A DNA stretch of 40,237 bases, taken from Candidatus Bipolaricaulota bacterium. GTDB lineage: Bacteria > Bipolaricaulota > Bipolaricaulia > M55B111. Positions within the stretch are counted from its first letter, which is position 1, and every line of letters starts with the position of its first letter. Below the pieces are notes generated by a model that saw nothing but the letters and a program-made list of their open reading frames with translations, did not search any database and was not told where the DNA came from. The translations under genes were made by a program, and so were the position numbers. The stretch is taken from NCBI GenBank assembly GCA_021735245.1, contig JAIPHJ010000016.1:1-40237 (forward strand), in the 5' to 3' direction. Below, one piece after another: positions 337 through 32,958 of this stretch.

Positions 337-1407
337 ATGCACGATAAATTATTTACACCGGGCCCGACCGAGGTAAGAACCGAACTTCTCCAGGAACTGT
401 CCACGGCCCAAATACACCACAGAACGGACGAATTCAGCGAACTGTACGACGCCATTCAGCCCAGACTACAAAAACTTCTCTACACCGATAATCCAGTTTT
501 TCTGTTCTCTTCATCCTCCACGGGAGCGATGGAGTCGGCGGTAACGAACGGGGTAAAGAAAAAATGCCTGACCGTTTCCAACGGTGCTTTTTCCGAACGG
601 TGGCATAAAATAGCGCTAAAAAACGGAGTCCCGGCCGACATGGTCGAACGAGACTGGGGAGAACCCGTCCCACCCGAGGTAATCGACGAGAAGCTCTCCA
701 CCGGGAACTACGACGCGGTAACCATGGTCTTTAACGAAACGTCGACGGGCATGATGAACCCGGTGAAGGAAGTCGGTGAAGTAGTTAATAATTACGACGA
801 CGTAATGTTTCTTGTAGACGCCGTATCCGGTATGGCAGGTGCAAAAATCAAAGTCGACGAGTGGGGGATCGACATGTGCCTCGCGGGGGTACAGAAAGCC
901 TTCGGGCTGCCCTCCGGCCTGGCAGTCGCATCCGTGAGCGATAGACTGCTTGAAAGGGCAGAAGAAGTCGAACCAAGGAGCTATTACTTCAACCTGCCGT
1001 TACTGTACAAGTACCACAAGAGAAGCCAGACGAGAACGACGCCCGCCATACCTCAAATCATAGTCCTCAGGAAACAGCTCGAATACATAGTTGAGGAGGA
1101 GGGAATTGAAAACCGGTTTGCCAGACACGAAAAACTTTCCGGTATCGTCCAGGACTGGGCAAAGAAGTACTTCGACATCTTTCCAGCCAAGGGATACTGG
1201 TCGCAAACACTTACCTGTGTCGAGAATACCAGAGGAATCTCAGTTGCAGACCTGAACCGGGAATTGATAGAGAAGCACAACCTCAGAATAGCGAACGGTT
1301 ACGGAGACATGAAGGAAGAAACGTTCCGAATCTCCAGCATGGCGGACACTTCCGAACCGGATATTCGAGGTCTGCTGGCCACTATAAACGACATCCTTGG
1401 ACTCTAG
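337..1407 (+). CDS. Class V PLP-dependent aminotransferase (serine-pyruvate / alanine-glyoxylate / phosphoserine type)
   Basis: This 356-residue cytoplasmic fold-type I transaminase starts with the family-typical FTPGPTEV at residues 6-13. Asp161 in LVDAVSG should bind the pyridine nitrogen of PLP. Lys187 in GVQKAFGLPSG is the Schiff-base lysine. TPAIPQ at 235-240 is the usual substrate-loop motif. The ATG follows AAAGGAGGTG, one of the best ribosome sites in the window. It is followed after 14 nt by serA and a DUF1015 gene, so the likely role is transamination of 3-phosphohydroxypyruvate or hydroxypyruvate in serine metabolism. Sequence alone does not tell a phosphoserine aminotransferase from a serine:glyoxylate enzyme; the operon favours the biosynthetic reading. 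Confidence 0.9.
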   Translation: MHDKLFTPGPTEVRTELLQELSTAQIHHRTDEFSELYDAIQPRLQKLLYTDNPVFLFSSSSTGAMESAVTNGVKKKCLTVSNGAFSERWHKIALKNGVPADMVERDWGEPVPPEVIDEKLSTGNYDAVTMVFNETSTGMMNPVKEVGEVVNNYDDVMFLVDAVSGMAGAKIKVDEWGIDMCLAGVQKAFGLPSGLAVASVSDRLLERAEEVEPRSYYFNLPLLYKYHKRSQTRTTPAIPQIIVLRKQLEYIVEEEGIENRFARHEKLSGIVQDWAKKYFDIFPAKGYWSQTLTCVENTRGISVADLNRELIEKHNLRIANGYGDMKEETFRISSMADTSEPDIRGLLATINDILGL

Positions 1408-1421: not shown

Positions 1422-2336
1422 ATGGTTAAATTACTGATCTCGGATCCGATAGCGGAGGAAGGGATAGAAAAACTCGAAGGGGCGGGATTCGAGCTCGATC
1501 ACAAATACGACCTATCCGCCGAGGAACTCGAGGGTGAAATAGGGAAATACGAGGGAATCGTTGTTCGATCCGCGACCAAACTAAGGGCTCCTATCCTCGA
1601 AGCGGCTGACAAGCTGCAGATCATAGTCAGAGCTGGCGTGGGGTTGGATAACATTGACCTCGACCGCGCCGACGAACTCGGTATCGAGGTCCAAAACACC
1701 CCGGCAGCCAGTTCAAACTCCGTAGCGGAGCTGGCTCTGGGCCACATGTTTTCTCTTGCCCGACAGATACCGCGGGGAACGGCGTCCCTGAAGGAACAGA
1801 AGTGGATAAAGAGCGACCTGCACGGTACCGAACTTTCCGGAAAAACCCTGGGCGTGATAGGGGCCGGAAGGATCGGGAGTCTGGTCGCGGAAAAAGGGAC
1901 GGCACTCGGTATGGAAGCAGTTGCTTACGACAAATTCGTCGACGAATCTCCAGTTGAAGGAGTAGACATGGTCGACCTGAGTCACCTTCTTGAGAACTCC
2001 GATTACGTGACGCTGCATATTCCGTTCGTCGAATCGGAAGGGGCGACGATAGCCGAACCCGAACTGAAGAAAATGAAGGACTCGGCCTATTTGATAAATT
2101 GCGCTCGTGGAGGAGTAGTAGACGAGGAAGCGCTAAAACGGGCTTTGAATAACGACTGGATTGCCGGAGCCGCGCTGGACGTATTCAAGGAAGAGCCCCC
2201 CGAGGACGAGGAATTACTCTCATTTGAAAACCTCTCATTGACACCTCACGTAGGTGCTTCTACAGCGGAGGCCCAGAGAAGAGTCGGAACGGGGGCCGCA
2301 GATAAATTAATTTATTTCTTCGATAAGGAGGAATGA
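1422..2336 (+). CDS. serA: D-3-phosphoglycerate dehydrogenase, short form without ACT domain
   Basis: The protein is a 304-residue D-2-hydroxyacid dehydrogenase that oxidises 3-phosphoglycerate to 3-phosphohydroxypyruvate with NAD, the first step of serine synthesis. The Rossmann signature GVIGAGRIG lies at 144-152. The catalytic triad is Arg229 (CARGG), Glu258 (KEEPP) and His276 (TPHVGAS). RAGVGLDNID at 70-79 is the substrate-loop signature. The protein ends right after the catalytic domain, so the C-terminal ACT or ASB regulatory domains of long SerA forms are absent and allosteric serine inhibition through ACT is unlikely. A GGGAGGGGG purine run precedes the ATG. It lies 14 nt after the aminotransferase and 3 nt before the DUF1015 gene, so one transcript is likely. 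Other 2-hydroxyacid dehydrogenases are possible, but the context favours SerA. Confidence 0.88.
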   Translation: MVKLLISDPIAEEGIEKLEGAGFELDHKYDLSAEELEGEIGKYEGIVVRSATKLRAPILEAADKLQIIVRAGVGLDNIDLDRADELGIEVQNTPAASSNSVAELALGHMFSLARQIPRGTASLKEQKWIKSDLHGTELSGKTLGVIGAGRIGSLVAEKGTALGMEAVAYDKFVDESPVEGVDMVDLSHLLENSDYVTLHIPFVESEGATIAEPELKKMKDSAYLINCARGGVVDEEALKRALNNDWIAGAALDVFKEEPPEDEELLSFENLSLTPHVGASTAEAQRRVGTGAADKLIYFFDKEE

Positions 2337-2339: not shown

Positions 2340-3641
2340 ATGGCTGAAGTCTATCCTTTTCAAGGGTACCGATACAATCCGGAAAAAGTGGGCGATGTAA
2401 ATCGCGTAGTCAGCCCACCGTACGACAAGATCGACGAAGAAGAGCGAGAAGACCTTGCCAACAACAGCATCTACAATATAGTCAGGATAATTCTAAGCAG
2501 GGCTAAAGACGAGGGAGAGGACAAGTACGAACGAGCCGCAAGTAACCTTCAGGATTGGATTGACGAAGGGGTCCTGCAGAGGGACGAAGAACCGGGATTC
2601 TACGCATACTATCAGGAGTACGAGGCCGAGGGCGAAAAGAAAGTCCGAAAAGGCTTTGTCGGCCTGGGAAAAATTGAAGAAGGGGAAGGGGTCAAAGCCC
2701 ACGAAGAAACGATGTCCGGACCCAAAGCAGACAGGCTGAGGCTGCTCAAAGCAACGGAAGCAAACTTCGGCCAGATATTCATGCTCTATTCCGACCCCGA
2801 AAACGAAGTAACCGAGGTAATGGACGAATCAAAAGGAGAAAAGCCGGTCCTGGAAGTAAAGGACAAGTACAGGAACGCTCACAGGGTCTGGAAAATAACT
2901 GACAACGAAATAATTGAGGAAATAAAAGGGCAGATGGAGGATAAGAGTCTTTACATAGCCGACGGTCATCACAGGTACGAAACCGCACTCAATTACCGAA
3001 ACGAGTGCAGGGAAAAGGGCTGGAAATCGCCCGAAAGCGGTGGTTTTGATACCCGAATGATGACTTTCGTAAACTTGGACGATCCCGGCTTAAGCATACT
3101 GGCGACTCACAGACTGCTCCACGACCTCAAGAATTTCAGGCCCCACGGAGTGCTGGACAAAGCCAGGGAACACTTCTCCATAGCTAGATACGACGAAAGA
3201 GAGGACCTGCTGGAGAAGTTAGACAACGATAGAGGAGAGAAGCATACCTTCGGTTACAGGGCAAAGGACGACAAAGCCTACTGGAGCCTTACTCTCCGGG
3301 ATGAATCAATTATGGCCGATCTACTTCCGGACAAGTCGGAAGTCTGGCGAAGCCTGGACGTCGCTATCCTCCACAAACTCGTCCTGGAAAACTACCTTGG
3401 AATTGATCAGGAAGCCCTGGAAGAAAAAAGGAACCTGGAATACATCAGGGGACGGGAGAAAGCCCTGGACATGCTCAAAGAGGGAGGATACCAGGGTGCT
3501 TTCATAATGAATCCAACCAGAATAGACCAGGTAAAAGAAGTTGCCGACAGGGGAGAAAAGATGCCCCAGAAATCGACCGACTTCTATCCCAAATTGTTGA
3601 CGGGTCCCGTAATTCACAAATTATCAATTGATAAAGGTTAG
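2340..3641 (+). CDS. DUF1015 family protein in serine operon
   Basis: The 433-residue soluble protein carries the DUF1015 hallmark A207-D-G-H-H-R-Y-E (residues 207-214) and an N-terminal RVVSPPYDKI at about 23-32. The family has no role that I can state as established. The D-G-H-H-R core resembles the active-site motif of ParB-like ADP/ATP-dependent serine kinases (SerK/SbnI), so a phosphoserine-related activity is a reasonable inference here. The gene starts 3 nt after serA and ends 3 nt before alaS, which is tight enough for translational coupling. I recall similar aminotransferase-serA-DUF1015 runs in other anaerobes but cannot check this here. The sequence is strongly acidic and has no signal peptide or membrane segment. 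Confidence 0.85.
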   Translation: MAEVYPFQGYRYNPEKVGDVNRVVSPPYDKIDEEEREDLANNSIYNIVRIILSRAKDEGEDKYERAASNLQDWIDEGVLQRDEEPGFYAYYQEYEAEGEKKVRKGFVGLGKIEEGEGVKAHEETMSGPKADRLRLLKATEANFGQIFMLYSDPENEVTEVMDESKGEKPVLEVKDKYRNAHRVWKITDNEIIEEIKGQMEDKSLYIADGHHRYETALNYRNECREKGWKSPESGGFDTRMMTFVNLDDPGLSILATHRLLHDLKNFRPHGVLDKAREHFSIARYDEREDLLEKLDNDRGEKHTFGYRAKDDKAYWSLTLRDESIMADLLPDKSEVWRSLDVAILHKLVLENYLGIDQEALEEKRNLEYIRGREKALDMLKEGGYQGAFIMNPTRIDQVKEVADRGEKMPQKSTDFYPKLLTGPVIHKLSIDKG

Positions 3642-3644: not shown

Positions 3645-6257
3645 ATGGAGTGGACAACGGACGAACTTAGAGAAGCTTATCTGGGGTACTTCGAAGAAAA
3701 AGACCATCTGAGAAAGGCGGGGTCCGGGCTGATACCCGACGACCCGTCCATGCTATTCACCTCGGCGGGCATGGTACAGTTCAAAGACATCTTCTGGGGT
3801 AAGAGAGACCCGGAGGAAACCAGGGTTACAACCTGCCAGAAGTGCTTCCGGGCAAACGATATCGAGCGCGTCGGCGAAACCTGGTATCACCATACCTTCT
3901 TCGAAATGCTCGGGAACTTCTCCTTTGGAGATTACTTCAAGAAGGGAGCTATCGAACTTGCCTGGGAATTTGTCACCGAGGTTCTCTCTTTCGAGGAGGA
4001 AAACCTCTGGATAACCGTCTACGAAACGGATGATGAAGCCTACGATATCTGGCGCGACGAAATCGGCATCCCCGAGCGAAGGATAGTCAGACTGGGCAAG
4101 GACGAAAACTGGTGGGGGCCGGTGGGCGACTCCGGACCCTGTGGTCCCGATTCCGAGATATTTTACGACGCGGGTGAGGAGTACGGCTGTGGCCCGGATT
4201 GCGAGGGCGTAGCCTGCGACTGTAACAGATTCAACGAACTATGGAACCTGGTCTTCACCGGCTATCAGATGAACAGAGAGGGGGAAGTTAAAGAGCTGGA
4301 AAGACAGAATATCGACACCGGCATGGGACTGGAACGGGTGGCTGCAGTTCTCCAGGGAGTCGATTCCGACTTCGAAATAGACGTGTTTCGGCCCCTAATC
4401 GAAAAATTAAGAGAGATAATAGGTCTTAACGAATACTCACCCCGGCAAACAAGTTTCGTTCACCGAATTGGTGACCACCTTAGAGGAGCGGCTTTCTTAA
4501 TTTCCGAGGGAGTGATTCCTGCCAACGCGGGCAGGGGCTACGTTCTGCGCCGGATTATCCGACGAGCCGTACAGGCCGGGGACAGACTCGGAATGAAGGA
4601 GACCTTCCTGACGTCTGCCCTGCCCCCGATTCTCGATACCATGGGAGGAACTTACCCGGAACTTGTCGATCGAAAGGACCTGATCGAGAACGTACTTGAC
4701 CACGAAGAAGCCAGCTATAGAAATACCCTTAACGAGGGGGAACAGTTATTTTATCGTCTGTCTTCCGATTTGAAGGAAAGTGGAGAGGCGGTAATTCCCG
4801 GCGAGGACGCCTTTCGACTCTACGACACTCACGGACTGCCGCTATCATTTCTGAAAGAACTGGCGGAGGAGAAAGACCTCGAAGTCGACGAAGAAGGCTT
4901 CGAGCGAGAAATGGCCAGGCAGAGATCCCGGTCGAGAAGCGAACAGGAGGATAGTGAAGGCCTGCACGAAGTCGCCGACGTCCCGGAAACGAAATTCGTC
5001 GGCTACGAAAAGGACTGTATAGAAGCACGAGTTATTGCACTCATCGGTGACGGAAAAGAAGTCGACAGTCTTTCGGAAGGGGAGGAAGGAGTAGCAGTAC
5101 TGAACAGAACCCCGTTCTACGCCGAGGCCGGAGGCCAGGTGAGCGACGTGGGCACGCTGGAAGACGAGCATTCCGGAGCTAAAGTCCACAAAGTAGTGGA
5201 GAGAAAAGGCATATACTACCACAGGCTGGAGATGGAAGCGGGTAAATTGAAGGTAGAGGATAAAATTGAAGCGAGGATAGAAACGAGCAAGAGGAGAAGC
5301 ACGGAACGAAATCATACGGGTACTCACCTCGTCCACCAGGCCCTCCAGCAGGTTCTCGGTCCTCACGTCGTCCAGTCCGGATCTAAAGTGGCACCCGACG
5401 AATTGAGGTTCGACTTCAACCACTTCGAAATCCCGACCGAGAAAGAAAAGCGGGAAATCGAAAACCTGGTAAACGAGGTGGTTCTTTCCGATAGACCGGT
5501 ATCCGAGGACTGGGTGGATAGCGTAGAAAAGGCAAAGGAACTCGGGGCAGCCGCCCATTTCGAAGAGGAGTACCGGGGGAAGGAAAAACTCCGGACGATA
5601 ACGGTAGAAGGCTTCAGCAAGGAGCTCTGCGGTGGAACCCACGTAAACCGAACGGGAGAGGTCGGCGGGTTTGCGATTCAATCGATCGAAACTATTGCCT
5701 CGGGCATACGTCGGATGAGAGCCTTAACAGGTGAAAATTTCCTATCCGAATACAGGCACCAGCGTGACCGGCTCGAACGGCTGGCGGAACTGGCCGGTTC
5801 CGGAAAGTCGGACATCGTCAAGCGGTTCGAGTCCATATTATCACAGCAGGAGAACCTGAGAGACGAACTGGAAAGGAAGACGGAGAGGCTATTGTCCACG
5901 GTAAAAGACCGGATTCTAGAAGAAACGGAGACTCTCGACGGAGTCGAGCTAATTTCCGCTCGGCCCCAGGTCGACGGGTCGGACCTAAAACGGTTAGCCG
6001 ACTACGTGGAAAAGGAAATTGACGGAGTAGTTATCTTAGGCTCGACCGAGGACGACAGCGCGTCGATAGTCTGCAAGGTTACGGAATCCCGAACGGACGT
6101 GCTGGACGCGGGAGAAATCGTCCGGGAAGCCTCGGCGGTGCTTGGCGGCGGAGGTGGGGGCTCACCCAACTTTGCTCAGGGCGGAGGCCCGAAAAAGGAC
6201 CAGATAGACGAAGCGCTGCGGTCCGGAGCTAACATAGTAAGATCAACCGTCGGTTAG
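3645..6257 (+). CDS. alaS: Alanyl-tRNA synthetase
   Basis: This 870-residue class II synthetase has the complete bacterial architecture. The aminoacylation core includes TSAGMVQFKDIFWG (about 38-51), a zinc-type Cys cluster (CGPDCEGVACDC, about 182-193) and the GRGYVLRRIIRRA motif. The editing domain has its two zinc-binding elements, His557-x3-His561 and Cys662-x3-His666, so mischarged Ser or Gly should be cleared. A coiled-coil linker and a Gly-rich C-Ala domain (LGGGGGGSPNFAQGGG) close the protein. The ATG lies 3 nt after the DUF1015 stop, making alaS the last gene of the serine operon. That link between serine supply and the enzyme that must reject serine is suggestive but may be only gene order. 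Confidence 0.97.
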   Translation: MEWTTDELREAYLGYFEEKDHLRKAGSGLIPDDPSMLFTSAGMVQFKDIFWGKRDPEETRVTTCQKCFRANDIERVGETWYHHTFFEMLGNFSFGDYFKKGAIELAWEFVTEVLSFEEENLWITVYETDDEAYDIWRDEIGIPERRIVRLGKDENWWGPVGDSGPCGPDSEIFYDAGEEYGCGPDCEGVACDCNRFNELWNLVFTGYQMNREGEVKELERQNIDTGMGLERVAAVLQGVDSDFEIDVFRPLIEKLREIIGLNEYSPRQTSFVHRIGDHLRGAAFLISEGVIPANAGRGYVLRRIIRRAVQAGDRLGMKETFLTSALPPILDTMGGTYPELVDRKDLIENVLDHEEASYRNTLNEGEQLFYRLSSDLKESGEAVIPGEDAFRLYDTHGLPLSFLKELAEEKDLEVDEEGFEREMARQRSRSRSEQEDSEGLHEVADVPETKFVGYEKDCIEARVIALIGDGKEVDSLSEGEEGVAVLNRTPFYAEAGGQVSDVGTLEDEHSGAKVHKVVERKGIYYHRLEMEAGKLKVEDKIEARIETSKRRSTERNHTGTHLVHQALQQVLGPHVVQSGSKVAPDELRFDFNHFEIPTEKEKREIENLVNEVVLSDRPVSEDWVDSVEKAKELGAAAHFEEEYRGKEKLRTITVEGFSKELCGGTHVNRTGEVGGFAIQSIETIASGIRRMRALTGENFLSEYRHQRDRLERLAELAGSGKSDIVKRFESILSQQENLRDELERKTERLLSTVKDRILEETETLDGVELISARPQVDGSDLKRLADYVEKEIDGVVILGSTEDDSASIVCKVTESRTDVLDAGEIVREASAVLGGGGGGSPNFAQGGGPKKDQIDEALRSGANIVRSTVG

Positions 6258-19485: not shown

Positions 19486-20874
19486 ATGAAAAAATTAACC
19501 ATATTTCTAGTGGTCTTCTCTTTGATTTTTAGTGGTATGGTCGTTGCTGGGTTCGCACAAGAAACAGAAAAAGAGGTTATCAAGTTAAAGGTACTGGGCG
19601 GAGAGACAAGTGCTCCGGAAAGGGCGGACTACTTTGGCCTTTTTGAAAAAGCATCGAAGGAAAGCGTTGAAAAATTATCACCCGAAGTACGCAACAGTTT
19701 CCCTGTGGCCAAATACGAGTTTAAACACCCCGGTGTCGATATCCAAATTGAGGGCGAAGCACCTCCTTACGGCGATATGCTTAAGGAGATCCAACTGGCC
19801 GTTTCTTCTCAGGCAAGCTACGATCTAATTGAAATGGACGATATCTGGCTCGGTCAGATAGCCGAAAGTGGTTATCTGTCGGCCAAACACTCCGATCAGT
19901 ACGAGAAATGGGCCAACGACCTGGGTTTCTACGACGTCTTCAAAAAAGGCTCGAAGTATAAGGGAAAATACTACGGCCTCTGGAAAGCTACCGACACCAG
20001 AGCTATCTGGGTCTGGAAAGACGTTCTCCACGCTGCCGGTTACACAATGGAAGACATCAGGTCAGCCAAAGGCTTATTAAACGCCCTACCGGAAATAACC
20101 GAGACGGCCAAAGAGGAATTTGGCATGAGTGGCGGGCTTGAATACCCATTCAACGGAAAATGGGTCGTAGATCAATGGTACGGCTGGCTTTACCAGTTAG
20201 GTGGTAAGATCCTCAAGCAAAACGAGGACGGAGAATGGGTGGCCGGATTCAACAACGAAGCCGGTTACGAATCCTTAAATTACGTAAAGAAACTGAAAGA
20301 AGCCGGTGCAACAATGAGAAGGACGTGGCAATGGAACCTCGCAAACTTTATGGATAGAAGCTACGCCATGACATACGAGGGAAGCTGGGATTTCCTCACT
20401 ATCAAAAACGAGTTCCCGAATCTCTCTCCGGCGGAAATCAAGGAAAAGATAGGAATGATTCCAACCACCGTATTTGAAGGAGAAGAAATGAGAGTCTTGA
20501 CCGGCGGTTGGTTGTGGACTATTCCGAAGACGGCCAACCATCCCGATCTCACATTCAATATACTGACTGAAATATTCGCGGACCGTAAAGCATACGCTCA
20601 GCATCTAGCATACGAGGCCAAATTCCCGACATCCGAGAAGCTCTGGGAATCCTCACTCTATCAGGAAAAGATGCTTGAGAACATGCCGGAAGAATGGTTC
20701 GAGAGCTTTCAGAACGGAGTTGAAGGTGGAGTATGGAGGCCTTTCTTTCCTGAATACCCGAAAATCCAGAAAGCACTCTGGGACGCAACCCAGAAAGTAG
20801 TAATGGGTAAGGCTACCGCCAAAAAAGCTTTAACCACGGCGGAGAAAAAGGTCAATAATCTAATGGAAGACTAA
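19486..20874 (+). CDS. Sugar ABC transporter substrate-binding protein (family 1)
   Basis: The 462-residue protein starts with a signal peptide cut probably after VAGFA. No Cys follows, so it is a soluble periplasmic protein, not a lipoprotein. The mature part is a type I extracellular solute-binding fold: PGVDIQIEGEAPPYGDMLKEIQLAVSS, YDLIEMDDIWLGQIAESGYL and YAMTYEGSWDF are typical lobes and hinge. Aromatic residues are abundant (WYGWLYQLGG, GGWLWTIP), as expected for carbohydrate binding. A strong stem-loop separates it from the permease genes. The downstream mannosidase and glucosidases suggest a manno- or gluco-oligosaccharide or a glycoside osmolyte, but the ligand cannot be read from sequence. 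Confidence 0.9.
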   Translation: MKKLTIFLVVFSLIFSGMVVAGFAQETEKEVIKLKVLGGETSAPERADYFGLFEKASKESVEKLSPEVRNSFPVAKYEFKHPGVDIQIEGEAPPYGDMLKEIQLAVSSQASYDLIEMDDIWLGQIAESGYLSAKHSDQYEKWANDLGFYDVFKKGSKYKGKYYGLWKATDTRAIWVWKDVLHAAGYTMEDIRSAKGLLNALPEITETAKEEFGMSGGLEYPFNGKWVVDQWYGWLYQLGGKILKQNEDGEWVAGFNNEAGYESLNYVKKLKEAGATMRRTWQWNLANFMDRSYAMTYEGSWDFLTIKNEFPNLSPAEIKEKIGMIPTTVFEGEEMRVLTGGWLWTIPKTANHPDLTFNILTEIFADRKAYAQHLAYEAKFPTSEKLWESSLYQEKMLENMPEEWFESFQNGVEGGVWRPFFPEYPKIQKALWDATQKVVMGKATAKKALTTAEKKVNNLMED

Positions 20875-20889
20875 TCTCTTCGTTATTAT

Positions 20890-20928
20890 CCACGGGAAAC
20901 GGGTCCTGCACTGACCCGTTTCCCGTGG
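20890..20928 (+). terminator. Strong stem-loop after the binding-protein gene (attenuator)
   Basis: A perfect 16-bp stem (CCACGGGAAACGGGTC paired with its complement at 20913-20928) has a 7-nt loop and is followed by TTCTAATTTT. It lies 15 nt after the stop of the binding protein and 104 nt before the first permease. Such structures in ABC operons stabilise or partly terminate the message, giving more binding protein than permease. Confidence 0.85.
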
Positions 20929-21032
20929 TTCTAATTTTGCCAACCAAGTACTGACCTGGATGATATTGATAACTTTGGGCAAGCAGAACGCTTCTTTGAA
21001 CACTCACGTGTGACGCGAGGTATCGGAAAAAC

Positions 21033-21908
21033 ATGAGAGATTACAGTTACGCTATACCCATATTATTTTTACTGCCTGCTATAGGCATACTCTTCTTCCT
21101 CCAATTTGTCGGGTGGGGCTGGAATATAAATATCGTTTTGCACGACGTGACGGTAATGAACATTCTCAGGGAGTGGCAGTTCGTGGGGCTGGAGAATTTT
21201 CGGGAAACCATTTTAGACCCTCAGACCCTCACGTCGCTGAAAAATACGGCAATATACACTGGAGCCTGTGTTAGTTTGCAACTGGTCATCGGCACGGTAA
21301 TAGCGTACTTTCTTTACCGGGCTGTCCCCCGGGTAGAGAAGTTTTTCCGCCCGATGTTCATCCTTCCCTGGCTAACTTCAGTACTGATTGCGGCCTTCGG
21401 GTGGGAACTACTTTTCAGCACGGACGTCGGGTTGATAAACTTAATGCTTACCACCATTGGCATCCCTAAAGTTGATTTCTTTGGCGGCTCCGTTACAGCC
21501 ATGGTATCCATAATAGTAGCCAATACCTGGTGGGGGACCCCGTTTACAATTCTCTTTATAGGATCCGGCATGACTTCCATTTCTCCTCAACTGGTGGAAG
21601 TCTCGAAGATAGACGGGGCAAGCGAATGGATGTTCTTTACGAGAGTAGCTATTCCTATGCTCCTGCCGTTTATCGTAATGGATATTGTACTCACCACAGT
21701 CTGGACCTTTAATGGTTACGCACTAATTTTAGAGATGACCGGTGGTGGACCACTCAATGCTACCAGAGTTTTGCCTCTGCATGCGTATCTTGCCGCTTTT
21801 GAAAGTGGCGACTTTTCTTACGGAGCCGCAATAACTATATTTTCAGTCGTCATAACGTTGATCCTGGTTTACTTCTACTTCCGAGTAGCAGATATAGAAA
21901 TGGTCTAG
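21033..21908 (+). CDS. Sugar ABC transporter permease, MalF/UgpA type
   Basis: The 291-residue inner-membrane protein has six predicted helices. The cytoplasmic EAA loop reads LVEVSKIDGASEWMFFTRVAIPMLLP at about residues 187-212, where it would dock on an ATPase. The C terminus has GGGPLNATRVLPLHAYLAAF, common in this subfamily. The ribosome site is weak (GAGG about 14 nt before the ATG). It pairs with the next gene as the heterodimeric channel. DNA from here to about 23500 looks more AT-rich than the flanking operons. Confidence 0.92.
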   Translation: MRDYSYAIPILFLLPAIGILFFLQFVGWGWNINIVLHDVTVMNILREWQFVGLENFRETILDPQTLTSLKNTAIYTGACVSLQLVIGTVIAYFLYRAVPRVEKFFRPMFILPWLTSVLIAAFGWELLFSTDVGLINLMLTTIGIPKVDFFGGSVTAMVSIIVANTWWGTPFTILFIGSGMTSISPQLVEVSKIDGASEWMFFTRVAIPMLLPFIVMDIVLTTVWTFNGYALILEMTGGGPLNATRVLPLHAYLAAFESGDFSYGAAITIFSVVITLILVYFYFRVADIEMV

Positions 21909-21921
21909 ATAGGTGAATATC

Positions 21922-22734
21922 ATGTCCGAAAAAGCAACACGAGTGATGATTTTGATCGGCTACGCTCTTTTTTCCTTATTGCCGCTTTATTGGCTCGCCA
22001 GCGTCTCCTTCCAGCAAGAATTCAATTTCCCTCCCAAGCCACTCCCGACGGATCCAACGCTATCCCACTATACGACTCTTTTCTCAAAACCAAGCCTCGT
22101 AGTTAGCATAATTAATTCGATCCTTATTGGTATAATGACGGCTATTCTTTCCGTACTAATATCTTCCATGGCAGCTTATGCCTTTGGAAAACTAAAATTT
22201 GCAGGGAAAAAGATAGTCTTTCTCGGTGTCATTTTGACCTTTCTCTTGCCTCCCAACCTCAATATAGTTCCGCTATATTCCTTATTTGCGGAGATGGGTC
22301 TGCTCGATAATCGGTTTGCACTGATATTCCTGTACCAGATTCTAATTCTGCCGCTGAATATATTTCTATTTATCAACTATTTTGATACGATAAAAGAATC
22401 GATTGTAGAATCTGCAATAGTTGACGGAGCGGGACCGATCAGACGTTTCTATAGAATTTTTCTTCCGCTATCAAAACCGGCTATAGTAGCTGGGTTTATT
22501 TTTGGCTTCAGGTTTTCCTGGGGAGAATATATCTTTGCCCAGACTTTTATTCGAAGTAGAGCACAGATGTTATTTCCCGCTACGTTGCAACAGGCAGTCT
22601 ACGGAGGTCAGTATACAGTAAATTACGATTTGATGGCTGCAGGGGCGATGGTGCTGTTGGTCCCTACGCTAGCTGTGTTAATTTTTGGGCAAGACTATCT
22701 CGAAATAGGCCTTCAACTGGGCGGTGTTGACTAA
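21922..22734 (+). CDS. Sugar ABC transporter permease, MalG/UgpE type
   Basis: This is the second channel subunit, 270 residues with six helices. Its EAA loop is ESAIVDGAGPIRRFYRIFLPLSKP, in the cytoplasmic loop between helices 4 and 5. ATG 21922 is preferred to GTG 21913 because AGGTG sits 6 nt upstream. It starts 13 nt after the first permease. No ATP-binding subunit (MsmK/MalK type) follows, so the transporter must share an ATPase encoded elsewhere. Confidence 0.92.
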   Translation: MSEKATRVMILIGYALFSLLPLYWLASVSFQQEFNFPPKPLPTDPTLSHYTTLFSKPSLVVSIINSILIGIMTAILSVLISSMAAYAFGKLKFAGKKIVFLGVILTFLLPPNLNIVPLYSLFAEMGLLDNRFALIFLYQILILPLNIFLFINYFDTIKESIVESAIVDGAGPIRRFYRIFLPLSKPAIVAGFIFGFRFSWGEYIFAQTFIRSRAQMLFPATLQQAVYGGQYTVNYDLMAAGAMVLLVPTLAVLIFGQDYLEIGLQLGGVD

Positions 22735-22836
22735 ATTAACAATGCCACGTAGATATTAAGCTTCTAACTTTCATAGTGGTTGTTCAACGAATTCGTTTGC
22801 GAGCATCACGAACGAGGCGATATCGAGTAATTATTG

Positions 22837-23505
22837 ATGATTACAACAGAACTTAAAATTGCCGGAAAGATCTACGGGAAAAACTTCTTTCGGTTAACTT
22901 TGCCGTTCCTAATCCCGTTCGGGCTGTCAGTATTTTTTCGCGGATTCAGGAATACATTGCCATTTATACCCCGGATGCTGACGTTGACAGGAATCAGTTT
23001 TATTTGCTTGATGCTGTTAGGCGGAACAGTGATAGATACATGGGGAGCTATAAAAAGCAAACAATTTAGCCTCAGGAAAAACTGGCTTCAGGTCTCCAGC
23101 CGAATCCCGCGCTTACTTTTACCAACGATACTTGTCCTAGTTCCCTGGTTGACCCTGTTTTACCTTTTCCTTGAATTCTTCAATTTTTTCCTCTTCGTCG
23201 CCCTGGTCATCTATCCCTTTTTCTTCCCCTTCCTGCTGCCCAGTCTACTCATTAGTGGTTCTGGTATGATGGGGGGATTAAGAAATTCTATCACCACTTC
23301 CTGGAACTATTCCACCAAAGCGGCAGTCGTTACTTACGTGCCGGGAATTCTTGGAGGTATTTTGAGCATAATTGGACTGGCGTCCTTAATTTACCTTTTT
23401 CTCCTTCCGGCCTGGATGGTGTTATCGACGGTGACTTACTACAAAATCTCCCAACGTTCCGATCCATCGGTAAACCAGCTGACGTTAGACGAAGGAAGAA
23501 AGTAA
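22837..23505 (+). CDS. Polytopic membrane protein of unknown function
   Basis: The 222-residue protein has five or six hydrophobic segments (about 15-32, 42-66, 88-112, 114-138, 170-200). A short Gly-rich loop, GSGMMGGLRNSITTSWNY, lies before the last helices, as in DUF624- or glycerophosphodiesterase-membrane-like proteins. DUF624 (YesL) proteins often accompany sugar ABC transporters, which fits, but I do not claim the family. There is no clear ribosome site; I use ATG 22837, with an in-frame TTG directly before it. It is the last intact gene before a stretch of transposon remains. Confidence 0.6.
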   Translation: MITTELKIAGKIYGKNFFRLTLPFLIPFGLSVFFRGFRNTLPFIPRMLTLTGISFICLMLLGGTVIDTWGAIKSKQFSLRKNWLQVSSRIPRLLLPTILVLVPWLTLFYLFLEFFNFFLFVALVIYPFFFPFLLPSLLISGSGMMGGLRNSITTSWNYSTKAAVVTYVPGILGGILSIIGLASLIYLFLLPAWMVLSTVTYYKISQRSDPSVNQLTLDEGRK

Positions 23506-23535
23506 ATTTGAACCGGCAGTTAAAGAGGCCAGAAT

Positions 23536-23807
23536 ATGTTCCAATGTCCGAAAGAGCTACAATGGCTTAAACGAAGACTTCTAACACCGGCAGGATTCCG
23601 GCACAGGAGAGGCAAAGCCACGATAAACGGCATCGAGGACTTCTGGAGGGAAAAGATGCTTGTTAAAACATTGCGGAAAGGCCGGAAAACTTCTTAGCGT
23701 ACCTAGCCGGAAAAGAGGTCAGGTTTAATCACCACAATTTGACTGGTGATCAATTTGTCAATAAAATTCTTGAAATGCTATTGAATAGAGAGAAAAGTAC
23801 TACATGA
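23536..23807 (+). pseudogene. Frameshifted C-terminal remnant of an IS1595-like transposase
   Basis: A frame from 23536 to 23697 contains HRRGKATINGIEDFWREKML. After a -1 shift near the A-run at 23665-23669, the frame 23670-23807 continues with IAERPENFLAYLAGKEVRF, then NHHNLTGDQFVNKILEMLL and a stop. Together these resemble the end of ISXO2/IS1595-type DDE transposases: the NGIE-FW element followed by an FRFN-R-like segment. The N-terminal two-thirds are missing. The remnant lies between the ABC genes and the glycosidase genes. Family identification is from motif memory only. Confidence 0.55.
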
Positions 23808-23913
23808 AACGCCAAACGCCCTGGTTTATCAAAATCACGCAGAATATTCTGGCCTATGGCCGGAGATGAATGCGAAAGTTTGTAAACAAATAGAAATCGC
23901 GGTGGCGAAGCCA

Positions 23914-23961
23914 TGAATCGGGCGAAATGCCCCGCCCCATGGGCGGGGATAGCGCGATTCA
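23914..23961. repeat. Large GC-rich hairpin, IS-end or REP-like
   Basis: The inner stem CCCCGCCC-CAT-GGGCGGGG (23930-23948) is perfect. The outer arms TGAATCG (23914-23920) and CGATTCA (23955-23961) close it, with bulged bases between. Such two-part hairpins occur at the ends of IS200/IS605 elements and in REP sequences. It lies 76 nt upstream of the GH38 GTG. No TnpA or TnpB frame is visible. The rest of 23808-24037 shows no gene. No U-run follows, so it is not a standard terminator. Confidence 0.6.
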
Positions 23962-24037
23962 AGCGATTTCTTTATTTCGTCAAGGCTGCAATCTTACTCA
24001 AGCCGCAGGAAAATTTTTTGTTTCTTGGAGGGTTAAC

Positions 24038-27000
24038 GTGAGTACAGACAAGACAAAGACTAAACGCGCCGACGACACCGAAAAGAGGTTAGAAAAGCTA
24101 GTTGTCGCAGATAGAAATGAACTGGACGACCTGAAATATTACAAAACCCCCGACTTTCTGAAACCCCGGGACCTGGATCCGACTAACTTTCAGCCCTGCG
24201 AGGTCGGTTTTACCTGGTCACGCAATCGGCAATACAGCCCCGAAGAGAGGAAGCAGATCACCGGGGATCTGGCCCGGGGCGGGAAATTACAAGAACAGCT
24301 GTCGATTGGGGACAGCGTCTGGTTTCATCTGAACTTCCAGGTCCCCGAATCAATGAAAGGACTACCCGTTTACCTCCGTTTTGTGGTAAAGCCCCAAAAA
24401 GATCCCGAGGGTAGCCCCCTCTCAAATCGACCGGCCGTGGAGGCATTATGCTACAGGGACGACCAACCCTGGCAGGCACTTGATCAGGGCCATCGAAAAC
24501 TTCTTCTTGAGGAGGAGGCTAAGCCCGGAACGCAGTACGAGCTGAAGATCGAGGTAGGCACTACCCTTTACTGGGGTGGGTTGGACGTAGAAGAGTTTAG
24601 ATTGGAAGCCGCCGAACTACTCGCGACAAGGAAGAAAGCCCAAAAGCTTTACCATACCTTTAAAGTCTTTAACGATCTGCGGAAAAACCTTGACGGGACT
24701 TCGGTAAACCGAACGAAAATACTTCGGGGACTCCACGAGGCCAGCCTGGAGGTACCTGTAAAACCGGACTCTGAAGAACAACTGCTGAAAGGGGTTCAAC
24801 TTGCCCGGGAAAGACTGGAACCTCTAAAGGAGCTCAAGTCCGACATTTCCGATTTTACTTTAACTACGGTGGGCCACGCTCATATCGACGCCGCCTGGTT
24901 GTGGCCCTGGTCGGAGACCATCCGCAAGTGCGGTCGAACCTTCTCCTCCGCTTTGAAACTGATGGAAGAATACCCGGAGTTTAAGTTCCTCCAGTCCCAG
25001 CCCCACCTCTATGAATTTGTTAGAAGACACTATCCCGACCTTTATGATCGCATCTCCCGGGCTGTAAGCTCTAATCGCTGGCAACCGGTAGGGGCCCTGT
25101 GGGTGGAAAGTGACGTCAACCTTGCGGGCGGGGAGACTCTGACCAGACAGTATCTCTACGGCAAACGGTACTTCCGCAAACAGTTCGATGTCGACCCAAA
25201 GATCACTTTTATCCCCGACGTCTTCGGTTATTCTCCCGCACTGCCGGGCATAGCCCGAGCTGCCGATTGCCCTTATTTCTTTACTCAGAAGATGAGCTGG
25301 AGCGAAGTCAACGAGTTTCCCCACCACAGCTTCCAGTGGGAAGGGATTGACGGATCCAAACTCCTGGCCCACTTCCCTCCCGCGGATACCTACAACGGAA
25401 TGAGCACGGGGGAGGCTGCAGAAGAACTTACCAGGTCGGTCAAAAACTACAAGGAAGCCGGCGTCCACAACGGAGCCGCTTACTTAATTGGTTGGGGTGA
25501 CGGAGGCGGGGGTGTCAACAGAGATATGCTGGAGACCACCCGAACCGTAAACGAGATTGATGCCCTCCCGGACGTGGAGTTTTCCTCACTGCAGGATTTA
25601 TTTGCCGATCTGGAAGGGGTCCGGGACCAGCTGGAGAAGTGGCGAGGAGAACTCTACCTGGAAAGACACAGAGGCACGTTAACCACCCAGGGAGAGACCA
25701 AGAAAAGCAACCGGGAGCTTGAGTTCTTACTGCGGAAGGCGGAACTATGGTCGGTCGCTGCCACGATAGAAGATCCGACAGTGGGATATCCTCAAAAAGA
25801 CCTGGAACTTGCCTGGAAAGGTTACCTCTTTCACTGTTTCCATGACGTGTTACCCGGTTCTTCCATCAGGGAAGTCTACGAGGACGCAGCCCGGGACTAC
25901 GGTGAGGTCAAGTCACGGGTTTTGGATATCCTCAATTCGGCAAAGAGTGAACTGTTACCCTCACGGGAAAGTTCCAACTACCTCTCCGTTTTTAACTCCC
26001 TCAGCTGGGAAATGGATCGAATAGTGGAAACCGATAACCACCAGTGGGACCAGGGCCAGAGATTGCAGGCGGTTGACCGCCAGGGAAACAAAAGCCCCGC
26101 TCAAGTGAGCGGCGACGGTCAAAAGCTGATCTTCGAAGCAAACGAGTTGCCGGCCATGGGTGCCAGAAGCTTCCGGGTTGAGCGAGCGGAAAGTTCCCCT
26201 TCACCTCGGCTCGACGTTCGCCCGGATCTCGTAGAAAACGAGAAGATCGCATTGCAAATAGACGATGACGGCAGGTTGAGTTCCATTTACGACAAGGTGG
26301 AAGACCGTGAAGTACTCCAGGGTCCGGGTAATAAATTACTGGCCTACAGAGACGTGCCCACCGAATTTGAGGCCTGGGAGCTAGAAGGGGACATTTACGA
26401 CAAAAGCGAGTCTTTGCCCTCCCCGGAAAACGTGGAAGTCCTGGAAAGTGGGCCCCTGCGGGCAGTCGTCAGACAGAAGAGATCCTTCGGGGAGTCCGAA
26501 CTGGTTCAGGACATAATCGTCTATGCCGATTCCAAACGGATCGATTTTCGCACCGGAGTCGACTGGAACGAGGAGAAGGTACTGCTTAAGACTCACTTTC
26601 CTATCAACGTGCGCACCGATCGGGCTACCTACGAAGTACAGTACGGCCACTACGATAGGCCCACCCATTCCAACACCTCCTGGGACCAGGCCCGGTTTGA
26701 AGTGTTTCACCAAAAATGGGTCGATGTATCCGAGTTCGGATATGGTGCCGCTTTGTTGAACGACGGCAAATACGGGGTCAACGTGAAGGACTCTACTATA
26801 GGACTTAGTTTACTGAGAGCGCCCAAATCTCCGGATCCGGAGGCCGATATGGGAGAGCACCGATTTACCTACTCTTTGATCCCTCATCAGGGGGACTTCC
26901 GGGAAGCCGGTGTTATTCAGCAGGCCTACGATCTAAACAGTGAACCCATGACCAGGCCAGTGGAAGAGTTTAATGCTGTGGAGCCCCCCTTTCAAATCGA

Positions 27001-27250
27001 GGACCAGGGAGTAGTTGCCGAGGCCGTTAAAATGGCTGAGGACCGAGAGGACATGTTAGTTATCAGGTTCTACGAGGCCTGGGGCAGGAAAACCACAACG
27101 GAGCTGGAGTTCAACTTCAAACCACGGAAGGCGGTTGAACTAAACAGCATCGAAGACGAGCAGGGTGAACTGAATCTTTCCGACCGGTCCGTTCAACTAA
27201 CTTTCAATCCCTTTGAAATCAAAACAGTCGGGGCGAGGCTACCTAGATAA
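24038..27250 (+). CDS. GH38 alpha-mannosidase, Ams1/MAN2C1 type
   Basis: This 1070-residue cytoplasmic glycosidase has no signal peptide. An N-terminal region of about 270 residues, as in the Ams1/MAN2C1 group, precedes the catalytic domain. That begins with GHAHIDAAWLWPWSET (about 279-294), whose His and Asp ligate zinc. The retaining nucleophile is Asp394 in FIPDVFGYSPALPGIA. HCFHDVLPGSSIREVY belongs to the middle domain. The frame is open up to 23927, but that part crosses the GC hairpin. GTG 24038 is chosen because GGAGGG lies 5 nt upstream. It should release mannose from imported oligosaccharides. Mannosylglycerate hydrolases are also GH38, so an osmolyte substrate is possible. Confidence 0.92.
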   Translation: MSTDKTKTKRADDTEKRLEKLVVADRNELDDLKYYKTPDFLKPRDLDPTNFQPCEVGFTWSRNRQYSPEERKQITGDLARGGKLQEQLSIGDSVWFHLNFQVPESMKGLPVYLRFVVKPQKDPEGSPLSNRPAVEALCYRDDQPWQALDQGHRKLLLEEEAKPGTQYELKIEVGTTLYWGGLDVEEFRLEAAELLATRKKAQKLYHTFKVFNDLRKNLDGTSVNRTKILRGLHEASLEVPVKPDSEEQLLKGVQLARERLEPLKELKSDISDFTLTTVGHAHIDAAWLWPWSETIRKCGRTFSSALKLMEEYPEFKFLQSQPHLYEFVRRHYPDLYDRISRAVSSNRWQPVGALWVESDVNLAGGETLTRQYLYGKRYFRKQFDVDPKITFIPDVFGYSPALPGIARAADCPYFFTQKMSWSEVNEFPHHSFQWEGIDGSKLLAHFPPADTYNGMSTGEAAEELTRSVKNYKEAGVHNGAAYLIGWGDGGGGVNRDMLETTRTVNEIDALPDVEFSSLQDLFADLEGVRDQLEKWRGELYLERHRGTLTTQGETKKSNRELEFLLRKAELWSVAATIEDPTVGYPQKDLELAWKGYLFHCFHDVLPGSSIREVYEDAARDYGEVKSRVLDILNSAKSELLPSRESSNYLSVFNSLSWEMDRIVETDNHQWDQGQRLQAVDRQGNKSPAQVSGDGQKLIFEANELPAMGARSFRVERAESSPSPRLDVRPDLVENEKIALQIDDDGRLSSIYDKVEDREVLQGPGNKLLAYRDVPTEFEAWELEGDIYDKSESLPSPENVEVLESGPLRAVVRQKRSFGESELVQDIIVYADSKRIDFRTGVDWNEEKVLLKTHFPINVRTDRATYEVQYGHYDRPTHSNTSWDQARFEVFHQKWVDVSEFGYGAALLNDGKYGVNVKDSTIGLSLLRAPKSPDPEADMGEHRFTYSLIPHQGDFREAGVIQQAYDLNSEPMTRPVEEFNAVEPPFQIEDQGVVAEAVKMAEDREDMLVIRFYEAWGRKTTTELEFNFKPRKAVELNSIEDEQGELNLSDRSVQLTFNPFEIKTVGARLPR

Positions 27251-27282
27251 AGGGTTTTATTTAGAAAATCTATAGGAGGATT

Positions 27283-28965
27283 ATGAAGAAACGCTGGTGG
27301 AAGGAAGCCGTGATCTATCAAATATACCCCCGGAGTTTTAACGACTCGAACGGGGATGGAATTGGAGACATACCGGGAATTACGGAGAAAGTGGATTACC
27401 TGGAGTGGTTGGGGGTCGATGGGGTTTGGTTGAACCCGGTTTATGACTCTCCAAACGATGACAATGGATACGATGTCCGGAACTATGAAAAAATCATGGA
27501 CGAGTACGGCAACATCGAGGAGTGGGAGGAACTGTTAAATGCCCTCCACGATCGAGATATCAACCTCATAATGGACTTCGTACCCAACCATACCTCCGAT
27601 GAACACAGGTGGTTTGAGAACTCCCGATCCCCCCGGAAGAAGAATGAGTATCGAGATTACTATTTTTGGCGCTCCGGCAAAAACGACGGTCCGCCAAACG
27701 ATTGGGATTCCATCTTCGGGGGCTCCGCCTGGGAGTACGACGAACGAGCCGGGCAGTATTACCTGCATTTGTTTTCCAAAAAGCAACCTGACCTCAACTG
27801 GGATAACCCCGAAGTTAGAGAGAGTATTTACGAAGCGATGAGGTTTTGGTTGCGGAAGGGTGTAGACGGTCTCCGTCTGGATGTGATCAACTTTATTTCT
27901 AAAGCCGCTAATTTACCCGATGCCGGATCCGATAAGCACCCCGGGGCAAGAGGTAGCAAGTATTACATTGACGGACCTAACGTACACCAGTATATCCAGG
28001 AGATGCACGAAGAGGTTTTCGCTGACTTCGATATGGTTGCCATAGGGGAGACCTCTCTCGTCAACCTGGAAGACGGCAAGCAGTACATCGACCCCGACAG
28101 CAATGAACTGGACATGTTGTTCCATTTTGATCACGTGACGTTCGACAAAGGACCAAAAGGAGACTGGGGAAAACAGAGGGATTGGAACTTAACCGAACTG
28201 AAAGAGATCTTCGGTCGGTGGATAGAGGCCGCTGACGAGGTAGGAGGCTGGATGGCCCATTACCTTAGCAACCACGACCAGCCCCGAGCGGTATCACGCT
28301 ACGGAAACGACCAGGAATACCGGGTAGAATCCGCAAAAACCCTGGCAACTCTCTTGCTGACCTTACCGGGAACTCCTTTTATCTACCAGGGTTGCGAAAT
28401 AGGGATGACTAACTATCCCTTCCAGAGCATAGAGGATATTCAGGATGTAAGTACGAGAAACCACTTCCAGGAACTCAAACAGGAAGGGAAAATCGACTCC
28501 TTCGAAGAGGTAAAAGAATCCGTGCGTTTCTGGAGCAGAGATAATGCCAGGACACCAATGCAGTGGAGCGACCAGAACTACGCCGACTTCTCCCAAAGTA
28601 AACCCTGGCTGCCGGTACACCCCAACCACGAGGAAGTGAACGTCGAAAGGGAACGGTCCGATCAGAACTCAGTATTAAACTACTACCGTCGGCTGATTGC
28701 ACTCCGAAAATCTGCTGAAGTCCTGGTATACGGGGAGTACGAACCACTTCTTCAAAACCACGAAAAGATTTTTGCTTACCTCAGAGAGTGGAAAGGGGAC
28801 CGTGTTATGGTAGCGATGAACTTTACTCCGGAGGAGGTAACGATACCCGAAGAACTTTCGTTCGATCGAGGGCAGTTGTTACTGGGGAATTACGGGAATG
28901 AGTCTGCACCGCTGAAAAATCAACGCCTGCAACCTTATCAAAGCGCAATTTTCCGCGTTCATTGA
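27283..28965 (+). CDS. GH13_31 alpha-glucosidase, oligo-1,6-glucosidase type
   Basis: The 560-residue cytoplasmic enzyme is close to MalL/oligo-1,6-glucosidases: WWKEAVIYQIYPRSFNDSNG at the N terminus and LIMDFVPNHTSDEH as region I. The nucleophile is Asp200 (LRLDVINF), the acid/base Glu256 (IGETSL) and the stabiliser Asp332 (SNHDQPR), numbering almost as in the Bacillus enzyme. Val directly after the nucleophile favours alpha-1,6 bonds over maltose-type alpha-1,4 bonds, according to published mutagenesis of this subfamily. Trehalose-6-phosphate hydrolase is an alternative but less likely without a PTS nearby. AGGAGG precedes the ATG. Confidence 0.92.
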   Translation: MKKRWWKEAVIYQIYPRSFNDSNGDGIGDIPGITEKVDYLEWLGVDGVWLNPVYDSPNDDNGYDVRNYEKIMDEYGNIEEWEELLNALHDRDINLIMDFVPNHTSDEHRWFENSRSPRKKNEYRDYYFWRSGKNDGPPNDWDSIFGGSAWEYDERAGQYYLHLFSKKQPDLNWDNPEVRESIYEAMRFWLRKGVDGLRLDVINFISKAANLPDAGSDKHPGARGSKYYIDGPNVHQYIQEMHEEVFADFDMVAIGETSLVNLEDGKQYIDPDSNELDMLFHFDHVTFDKGPKGDWGKQRDWNLTELKEIFGRWIEAADEVGGWMAHYLSNHDQPRAVSRYGNDQEYRVESAKTLATLLLTLPGTPFIYQGCEIGMTNYPFQSIEDIQDVSTRNHFQELKQEGKIDSFEEVKESVRFWSRDNARTPMQWSDQNYADFSQSKPWLPVHPNHEEVNVERERSDQNSVLNYYRRLIALRKSAEVLVYGEYEPLLQNHEKIFAYLREWKGDRVMVAMNFTPEEVTIPEELSFDRGQLLLGNYGNESAPLKNQRLQPYQSAIFRVH

Positions 28966-29088
28966 TTCCGGGTTGCTGAATTATGACGAGACGAGGCGTA
29001 ATTAGCCGAAGAATCAGAAGCCGACCTGTTTTTCCTGTTGTCGTTCGAGTGATGATTATTTGAACAGTCACCTGGGGAGGTGTATTAG

Positions 29089-31718: not shown

Positions 31719-32903
31719 TTACTTTACCTTTTCCGCGATTTCTTCCCCCAGCTCTATAACCCTCTCCAGATCCCCCTCTTCCGGCGATCCTTTAACGTCG
31801 ACCGCGCCCAGCAGTTCGCCGGAGGTGCCCTCGACGAGCTTCGATAGCTCCCTAACGGCCCCGCCTGCCCAGCCGTGTGATTCGACGATACCAAAGTACT
31901 TGGTCGGCGGGTTCAACTTTTTGGCAAGCGTGGCGGTATAGATTATCTGGGGATGGGGGCCGGCTAGGACGGTTGGCGTCCCGAAAACTACCCCGGCACT
32001 ATCTACCAGCTCTCCGGCCAGATTATTAAGGTTCTGCGACGATACTTCGAACGGTACGGCGTCCACCTCCGAGGCAATAGTCTCTCTCAAAACGTGAACC
32101 ATTTCAGCGGTGCTACCCCACATGGAGACGTAGGGAATCAGGACTTTTTCGTCCAGTTCGGCGCCGGTCCAGGACCTGTGGGCCTCGAGGATCTTCTCGG
32201 GGTTCCGGTAGATTACCCCGTGACTCGGAGCTATGGTATTAACTTCGTATTCCTCGAGCTTATCCAGGGCCCGTTTTGCCCTCGGACGGAACGGCATCAT
32301 GATTTCCCCGAAGTAATCCTTGGCCCGCTTCAGGACGTCCTCACCGAACTCGTCGGCGTATAGCTTGGGTGTAGCTACGTGAGCGCCGAAGAAATCGGAG
32401 GGGAAAAGTACTCCTTCCTCCCGGTAATAAGTGAACATGGTCTCGGGCCAGTGAAGCCACGGGGCTTCTATGAATTCAAGAATTTTGTCCCCCAGGTCGA
32501 GCGTATCGCCGCCTTCGACCACGTGAAATTTCTCTTCCGGTAAGTCGTAAAGGGAGAGAGCCATATCCTTGCCCTTTTTCGTGGCCAATATCTCCGCGTC
32601 CCCGGCGAGCGAGACCATGTGGCTGAGACCGTTCGCGTGATCCGGTTCCGCGTGATTCATGATCAGATAATCCAGGCCTTCTGGATCGGTAACCTGTCTG
32701 ATTTTCTCCTCCAGTTCTTTTTCGAACCCTGGGTTAACCGTATCTACCAGTGCCGTTTTGTCCTCTCCCTGAACCAGGTAGGCATTGTAGGTGGTGCCTT
32801 CGGGTAGAGGAACCAGCTTGTCGAAGAACTTTCTATCCCAGTCCCTCACACCGACCCAGTAGACGTCGGACGATATCTCTCTTACTTCACGTGTAATAGC
32901 CAT
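31719..32903 (-). CDS. A-type flavodiiron protein (NO / O2 reductase)
   Basis: The 394-residue cytoplasmic enzyme has an N-terminal metallo-beta-lactamase domain with a di-iron site: His84, Glu86, Asp88 and His89 (NHAEPDH), then His151, Asp170 and His228 at the expected spacings. A C-terminal flavodoxin domain follows, with the FMN loop VSMWGSTAEM near 259-268. It reduces NO to N2O and/or O2 to water, using rubredoxin-like donors. No rubredoxin domain is fused. It lies 55 nt downstream of the DUF438 gene on the same strand, probably in one transcript. GGGAGG precedes the ATG. Confidence 0.95.
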   Translation of the reverse strand: MAITREVREISSDVYWVGVRDWDRKFFDKLVPLPEGTTYNAYLVQGEDKTALVDTVNPGFEKELEEKIRQVTDPEGLDYLIMNHAEPDHANGLSHMVSLAGDAEILATKKGKDMALSLYDLPEEKFHVVEGGDTLDLGDKILEFIEAPWLHWPETMFTYYREEGVLFPSDFFGAHVATPKLYADEFGEDVLKRAKDYFGEIMMPFRPRAKRALDKLEEYEVNTIAPSHGVIYRNPEKILEAHRSWTGAELDEKVLIPYVSMWGSTAEMVHVLRETIASEVDAVPFEVSSQNLNNLAGELVDSAGVVFGTPTVLAGPHPQIIYTATLAKKLNPPTKYFGIVESHGWAGGAVRELSKLVEGTSGELLGAVDVKGSPEEGDLERVIELGEEIAEKVK

Positions 32904-32958
32904 GACTGTTGCCTCCCGTTATAGAAAAATTCTTAGCTAAATATTAGTAAAGCAAAAA

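Follow-up and report, generated by a model that had tools for sequence, protein, structure and literature searches.

The DUF1015 gene and its operon

The window, by which we mean the whole analysed stretch of 40,237 nucleotides from Candidatus Bipolaricaulota bacterium, carries four genes in a row on the + strand, separated by gaps of 14, 3 and 3 nt:

337..1407, + strand: class-V aminotransferase, SerC-like by context, the operon's first gene (PF00266, 2e-26)
1422..2336, + strand: SerA-like 2-hydroxyacid dehydrogenase, short form (PF02826, 1.9e-55, and PF00389 only)
2340..3641, + strand: DUF1015 protein, proposed free-serine kinase, SerK-like (PF06245, 2.5e-95; 433 aa, ATG start)
3645..6257, + strand: alaS, alanyl-tRNA synthetase, the next gene after DUF1015 (TIGR00344, 4.2e-261)

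Ribosome-binding-like purine runs precede the aminotransferase, SerA-like and DUF1015 starts. An earlier note on this DNA had placed a DUF1015 gene at 2340–3641, 3 nt away from serA on one side and alaS on the other, and the open reading frames and the PF06245 match bear this out. The same note spoke of a serine biosynthesis operon without serB. No SerB lies within the operon, and in the source genome (83 contigs, 85% complete, 4.4% contamination) the SerB model TIGR00338 finds no match at E ≤ 1e-8; its partial matches, followed up to E 1, fall inside frames of 400–897 aa, of which one contains a stop. The arrangement recurs in the phylum, as described below. The names 'serC', 'serA' and 'serine biosynthesis operon' we infer from context, since the aminotransferase and the dehydrogenase score under the NCBIfam equivalog cut-offs. 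The dehydrogenase reaches 345 bits with TIGR01327 (cut-off 454), and the aminotransferase stays under every equivalog cut-off, the best match being BhcA with 184 of the 650 bits required.

At the end of another contig of the source genome (C17, locus L002) lies a second, diverged serC-serA-DUF1015 copy, truncated by the contig end, which may be a strain variant, a contaminant or a duplication. Contig C40 encodes serine hydroxymethyltransferase (SHMT) fused to the glycine-cleavage T-protein in a single 1181-aa frame (L178:386-3931, + strand; PF00464 6.9e-118, PF01571 5.2e-85), with a second copy on contig C11 (L179); the fusion may couple glycine and serine metabolism in the window's family. 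Further along the window, inspection by eye finds at 19486–31380 a sugar ABC transporter and, after it, three genes of glycosidase type, probably a single carbohydrate-use cluster. Flavodiiron-like, hemerythrin/PAS-like, MarR-like and hybrid-cluster-like genes follow at 31719–36727, which suggests an oxygen or nitric oxide response cluster.

Family membership and conserved motifs

The window protein belongs to PF06245 at full length, scoring 319.6 bits over residues 4–341 (gathering cut-off 25.8). This is its only Pfam match, and neither SerB (TIGR00338) nor His_Phos_1 matches it. Neither the Pfam nor the NCBIfam copy used here names a function for DUF1015. In the open-licence literature we found no report of its function, and the mentions of DUF1015 there are non-functional. 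Four motifs were followed in an alignment of 78 DUF1015 members (A2):

2415..2426, + strand: PPYD, residues 26–29, in an N-terminal extension without SerK equivalent; P27 and D29 in 78/78
2700..2705, + strand: H121-E122, matching H29-E30 of SerK (catalytic Glu); H in 78/78, E in 77/78
2958..2975, + strand: ADGHHR, residues 207–212, matching V68-D69GHHR73 of SerK in the hmmsearch alignment; invariant
3561..3578, + strand: MPQKST, residues 408–413, matching SPK221TT223 of SerK in the hmmsearch alignments; K411 and T413 in 78/78

T124, R132 and D208–R212 are also kept in 78/78 each. ADGHHR and MPQKST served as scan patterns for collecting the members, and part of their invariance is therefore due to selection; the HE motif was no such pattern.

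The residue after the C-terminal Thr is Tyr in 55, Phe in 13 and Asp in 10 of the 78 members, whereas SerK, SbnI and L138, a SerK-like archaeal protein, have Arg in common at this position. The shared Arg is an observation of this analysis and not an established defining feature. Since it is not kept in DUF1015, the serine pocket may differ. In the window protein the position is residue 414 (window 3579–3581). All 19 aligned members from the window's phylum have Asp here and most other members Tyr or Phe; the residue may be the sign of a substrate pocket particular to the lineage.

A distant sequence link to SerK

Searching PDB sequences with the window protein alone gives no match up to E 1, and the phylum alignment A1 gives unrelated matches only. 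A profile of the 78 members (hmmsearch) reaches SerK at E 0.049–0.66, pairing ADGHHR with VDGHHR of SerK and the C-terminal MPQKST stretch with SerK residues 166–223. Removing an inner insertion improves the match to 1vk1 to E 0.012. When the 78 members were scanned against 18950 NCBIfam models, SerK (NF053625) was the commonest weak match, occurring in 9/78 with a best E of 0.0023, and no other weak family appeared in more than two members. The NF053625 equivalog cut-off (380 bits) lies above all 78 members, and the window protein has no match to this model. PF02195 (ParB) is not among the 25 of 29 Pfam families listed for the 78 members at E ≤ 1. Comparison of A2 with three SerK-like rows by hhalign gives a probability of 67% and an E of 5e-5 over 57 columns.

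The order of the motifs is also shared. In SerK, whose sequence was found via L138, the catalytic glutamate sits in KMKPHE30, a numbering confirmed by the PDB sequences of the E30Q and E30A variants, and is followed by D69GHHR and then by SPK221TT223R. H121-E122 was paired with H29-E30 by motif and order, not by atomic superposition. Archaeal SerK itself scores over its cut-off in 0/37 DUF1015 genomes from the 80 named loci described below, and the weak matches there are mostly of ordinary-ParB length.

Predicted fold

An AlphaFold2 model of the window protein with 77 relatives has a pLDDT of 95.9 and a pTM of 0.93. For a second model the lead sequence was an archaeal member with 38% identity to the window protein; built from 30 rows, none of them from the window, this model has a pLDDT of 94.7. 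At E ≤ 1e-3, Foldseek returns the same nine PDB matches for both models, all of them SerK (1vk1, 5x0b, 5x0e, 5x0g, 5x0j, 5x0k) or SbnI (5ujd, 5uje, 6nr6); the next match of the window model is EF-G, at E 3e-3 and probability 0.13. VIA Z scores of the window model are 12.7–14.4 for SerK, 11.2–12.4 for SbnI, 4.8 for sulfiredoxin and at most 3.2 for the remainder, and those of the second model are 12.6–15.1 for SerK/SbnI and 4.4–5.2 for sulfiredoxin entries. In both models the superpositions span 210–232 residues and cover the ParB-like domain and the SerK-type C-terminal domain alike, at a structure-based identity to SerK of 13–20%. The N-terminal extension of ~85 residues and an insertion of ~47 residues have no SerK counterpart.

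The earlier note had likened ADGHHR to the motif of ParB-fold serine kinases. Two independent models that match only SerK or SbnI structures, and catalytic motifs that align, bear it out. A fold unlike ParB/SerK together with a classical serB elsewhere in the genome would have spoken against the note's proposal; we find a SerK-like predicted fold and no serB at the threshold given above. A shared fold alone is no proof of function.

SerK (the ADP-dependent TK0378 of T. kodakarensis, PDB 5x0b–5x0k; 1vk1 of P. furiosus; NF053625) resembles DUF1015 in its two-domain fold (Z 12.7–15.1), its PHE, DGHHR and PK.T motifs and, in Desulfurococcales, its serA/aminotransferase neighbours. It differs in that DUF1015 is longer (433 against about 240 residues), with its extension and insertion, and lacks the post-Thr Arg. 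SbnI of staphylococci likewise shares the fold (Z 11.2–12.8) and the HE and DG.HR motifs, but it serves siderophore biosynthesis and has TRF where DUF1015 has T[YFD]F. The sulfiredoxin/ParB-CTPase fold has the core in common with DUF1015 and no SerK-type second domain.

Gene neighbourhood within and beyond the phylum

Among 100 genomes of the window's phylum, DUF1015 is found in 67 and a SerA-like match (E ≤ 1e-40) in 91. A SerA match lies directly upstream on the same strand of 64 of the 68 DUF1015 matches, a count that excludes the second fragments of two split genes, with a median gap of 21 nt between matches. Three of the other four are near contig starts, and the fourth, a divergent copy (G057), stands apart. 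DUF1015 is downstream of 63 of the 66 high-scoring SerA matches, and in three families without DUF1015 (f3, f4 and f7) SerA, where present, scores lower. The best 30 phylum loci have serA upstream in 30/30 and serC in 29/30, the exception ending at a contig edge. Because it recurs in this way, the serC-serA-DUF1015 arrangement is not due to chance. alaS is downstream in 6/30, all six from the window's own family.

Beyond the phylum, we took the best 80 of at least 585 DUF1015 stretches in named genomes of many phyla. With SerA and SerC profiles, 9/80 are linked within the DNA examined: Planctomycetota 4/10, Chloroflexota 2/3, Bipolaricaulota 1/1, Caldifarciminota 1/1 and Gemmatimonadota 1/1 (weak). 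The other 71 of these best 80 have no serA or serC within the DNA examined; Bacillota (0/20), Thermodesulfobacteriota (0/8), Nitrospirota (0/6), Myxococcota (0/6) and all remaining phyla are without a link. The families found next to DUF1015 in unlinked lineages, methyltransferases among them, gave no lead. A phylum sample centred on a Chlorobiaceae genome, probably GTDB Bacteroidota, has DUF1015 in 173/198 genomes, and a serA or serC relative lies within 1.5 kb in 25 of its 30 best-scoring DUF1015 loci. The order of the genes varies from phylum to phylum, which speaks for a cluster that was repeatedly retained or assembled. In a FastTree of 237 proteins, ser-gene linkage changes at least 10 times.

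We take COG4198 to be the same family as DUF1015. Glycine riboswitches have been described ahead of serC and COG4198 genes, presumably in Firmicutes (PMC2211319). At the gathering threshold, no glycine riboswitch is found in the window or in any of the 25 loci scanned out of the 80 named ones. In two Porphyromonas species, DUF1015 stands side by side with serC and an NAD(P)-binding gene (PMC11316588).

DUF1015 and SerB

The earlier note had raised the possibility that DUF1015 supplies the missing step of the pathway. In the window's family this part of the claim keeps some ground: DUF1015 is present in 6/6 genomes, a SerB-like match (E ≤ 1e-8) in 0/6, His_Phos_1 in 0/6, SHMT in 2/6 and cysE in 3/6, and incompleteness alone would hide a universal SerB in all six with a probability of 7e-5. 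For the phylum the claim fares worse. With SerB-like HAD counted at E ≤ 1e-15, 50 of the 100 genomes have both, 17 DUF1015 alone, 20 the SerB-like protein alone and 13 neither, so that the two are not anticorrelated (Fisher p 0.17). Because DUF1015 and a SerB-like HAD coexist in 50 of the 67 DUF1015 genomes, a general replacement of SerB in the phylum is unsupported and was rejected; replacement is an option for particular lineages only.

The SerB-like HADs form an HAD-IB subfamily under the serB cut-off, seen in 70/100 phylum genomes and not found in the window's family; six of the seven sequences read (L041–L047) start with FDLDGTLVRY. Four phylum HADs that were scanned have serB as best NCBIfam match, at 100–109 bits against a cut-off of 144.

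In the Chlorobi/Bacteroidota sample, DUF1015 is linked to serC/serA in 0/51 genomes with SerB over the cut-off and in 40/49 genomes without classical SerB, plus 25/30 in the top-scoring set (Fisher p 1.5e-19 for the 51 against the 49). The 49 are the listed rows after the top 30, skipping G414 and G410 (sub-threshold SerB) and G284 and G409 (contig-end rows); the top 30 include G371 and G354, each with a SerB match under the cut-off. On the tree there are four supported independent SerB changes, and none is paired with a linkage change. As independent evidence the contrast was therefore rejected, and it may reflect one or two old events, given how few independent changes the tree holds. Porphyromonas is a possible counter-example to it, since P. 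gingivalis has SerB.

Discussion

Both characterised relatives of DUF1015 act on free serine. SerK of T. kodakarensis phosphorylates it to phosphoserine; the serK gene of Desulfurococcales has serA and an aminotransferase gene close by, and serine assimilation to 3-phosphoglycerate has been proposed there (PMC5120207). SbnI also phosphorylates free serine, and its kinase activity depends on Glu20 and Asp58 (PMC9641203). The earlier note had offered regulatory phosphorylation as another role of DUF1015, which finds no support here because these relatives act on free serine.

DUF1015 is probably a serine kinase, since a SerK-like predicted fold, active-site motifs and frequent serine-gene neighbours point the same way. 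We predict that it is a free-serine kinase that belongs to the SerK/SbnI group of ParB-fold enzymes as a distant relative of greater size, with a probability of roughly 0.62; we prefer this reading because the characterised relatives phosphorylate serine and the window operon mirrors the Desulfurococcales arrangement. From the fold, the motif alignment and the conserved operon we infer its substrate, donor, activity and direction. DUF1015 would move phosphate between free L-serine and a donor, with a nucleotide, or possibly pyrophosphate, bound at the DGHHR loop and Glu122 as the catalytic base. O-phosphoserine would pass to and from the other two pathway enzymes of the operon, the SerC-like and the SerA-like one (phosphoserine <-> phosphohydroxypyruvate <-> 3-phosphoglycerate). 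The most likely net flow would run from serine to phosphoserine, that is, serine assimilation as proposed for archaeal SerK, and where SerB is absent the flow could be reversed. Pyrophosphate-serine phosphotransferase is an orphan activity (EC 2.7.1.80). Several points argue against a free-serine kinase: the low structure-based identity to SerK, the marginal best sequence E-values, the Arg that DUF1015 lacks after the C-terminal Thr, the N-terminal extension and insertion that SerK does not have, and the lack of serA/serC linkage in most other lineages (71 of the best 80 named loci).

DUF1015 may instead replace SerB, turning phosphoserine into serine in vivo with transfer of the phosphate to a nucleotide, Pi or water and so completing biosynthesis without SerB. 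SerB (TIGR00338) and its displacements SerB2 and SerB4 (PMC9026213) hold the pathway position proposed for DUF1015, but they belong to HAD or histidine-phosphatase families, none of which DUF1015 matches. The gene content of the window's family and the Chlorobi/Bacteroidota linkage contrast favour replacement, as do the 450 gut genomes with SerA and SerC and no known SerB (PMC9026213). Serine is also probably used in the window's organism, since its genome has cysE. However, SerB-like HADs accompany DUF1015 in most phylum genomes, the Bacteroidota contrast collapses on the tree, known SerK runs from serine to phosphoserine, and other HADs or SHMT could provide serine. With nucleotide donors, phosphorylation is the energetically favoured direction. 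On balance we regard replacement as doubtful. It seems to us unlikely that DUF1015 is a reversible serine/phosphoserine phosphotransferase which, in lineages that lack SerB (the window's family and many Bacteroidota among them), runs toward serine, conserves the phosphoryl group in a nucleotide or pyrophosphate and so provides the absent final step of serine biosynthesis.

DUF1015 could also be a ParB-fold nucleotide-binding protein that acts on another small substrate, for instance phosphohydroxypyruvate, glycerate or homoserine, or that serves the pathway as a regulatory switch. Many proteins with the ParB-CTPase fold bind ATP, CTP or GTP, and binding of CTP is reported for a SerK-like protein from archaea (PMC12704722); the absence of the C-terminal Arg and the many unlinked lineages fit as well. 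But DUF1015 keeps both domains of SerK and SbnI together with the catalytic Glu, not a ParB domain alone, and its linkage is to serA and serC, so that such a role is rather improbable. Still less probable is a kinase whose phosphoserine goes mainly into cysteine or some other product. SerK of T. kodakarensis works in cysteine synthesis (PMC5120207) and SbnI in siderophore synthesis (PMC9641203), but SerC and SerA of the operon would already make phosphoserine, and the window's genome has cysE, a gene that scores over its cut-off in 42/100 phylum genomes.

The predicted free-serine kinase activity would matter well beyond the window, as DUF1015 is widespread: it occurs in 67/100 genomes of the window's phylum and in 173/198 of the Chlorobiaceae-centred sample, and named genomes contain it in at least 585 stretches. 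If DUF1015 is a serine kinase, a small group of enzymes from a few archaea and staphylococci would widen to much of the bacterial tree, and the 'missing SerB' gap of 450 genomes (PMC9026213) would become testable by one enzyme assay. If the reversible phosphotransferase is the true reading, DUF1015 would provide the final step that serine biosynthesis seems to lack in many bacteria.
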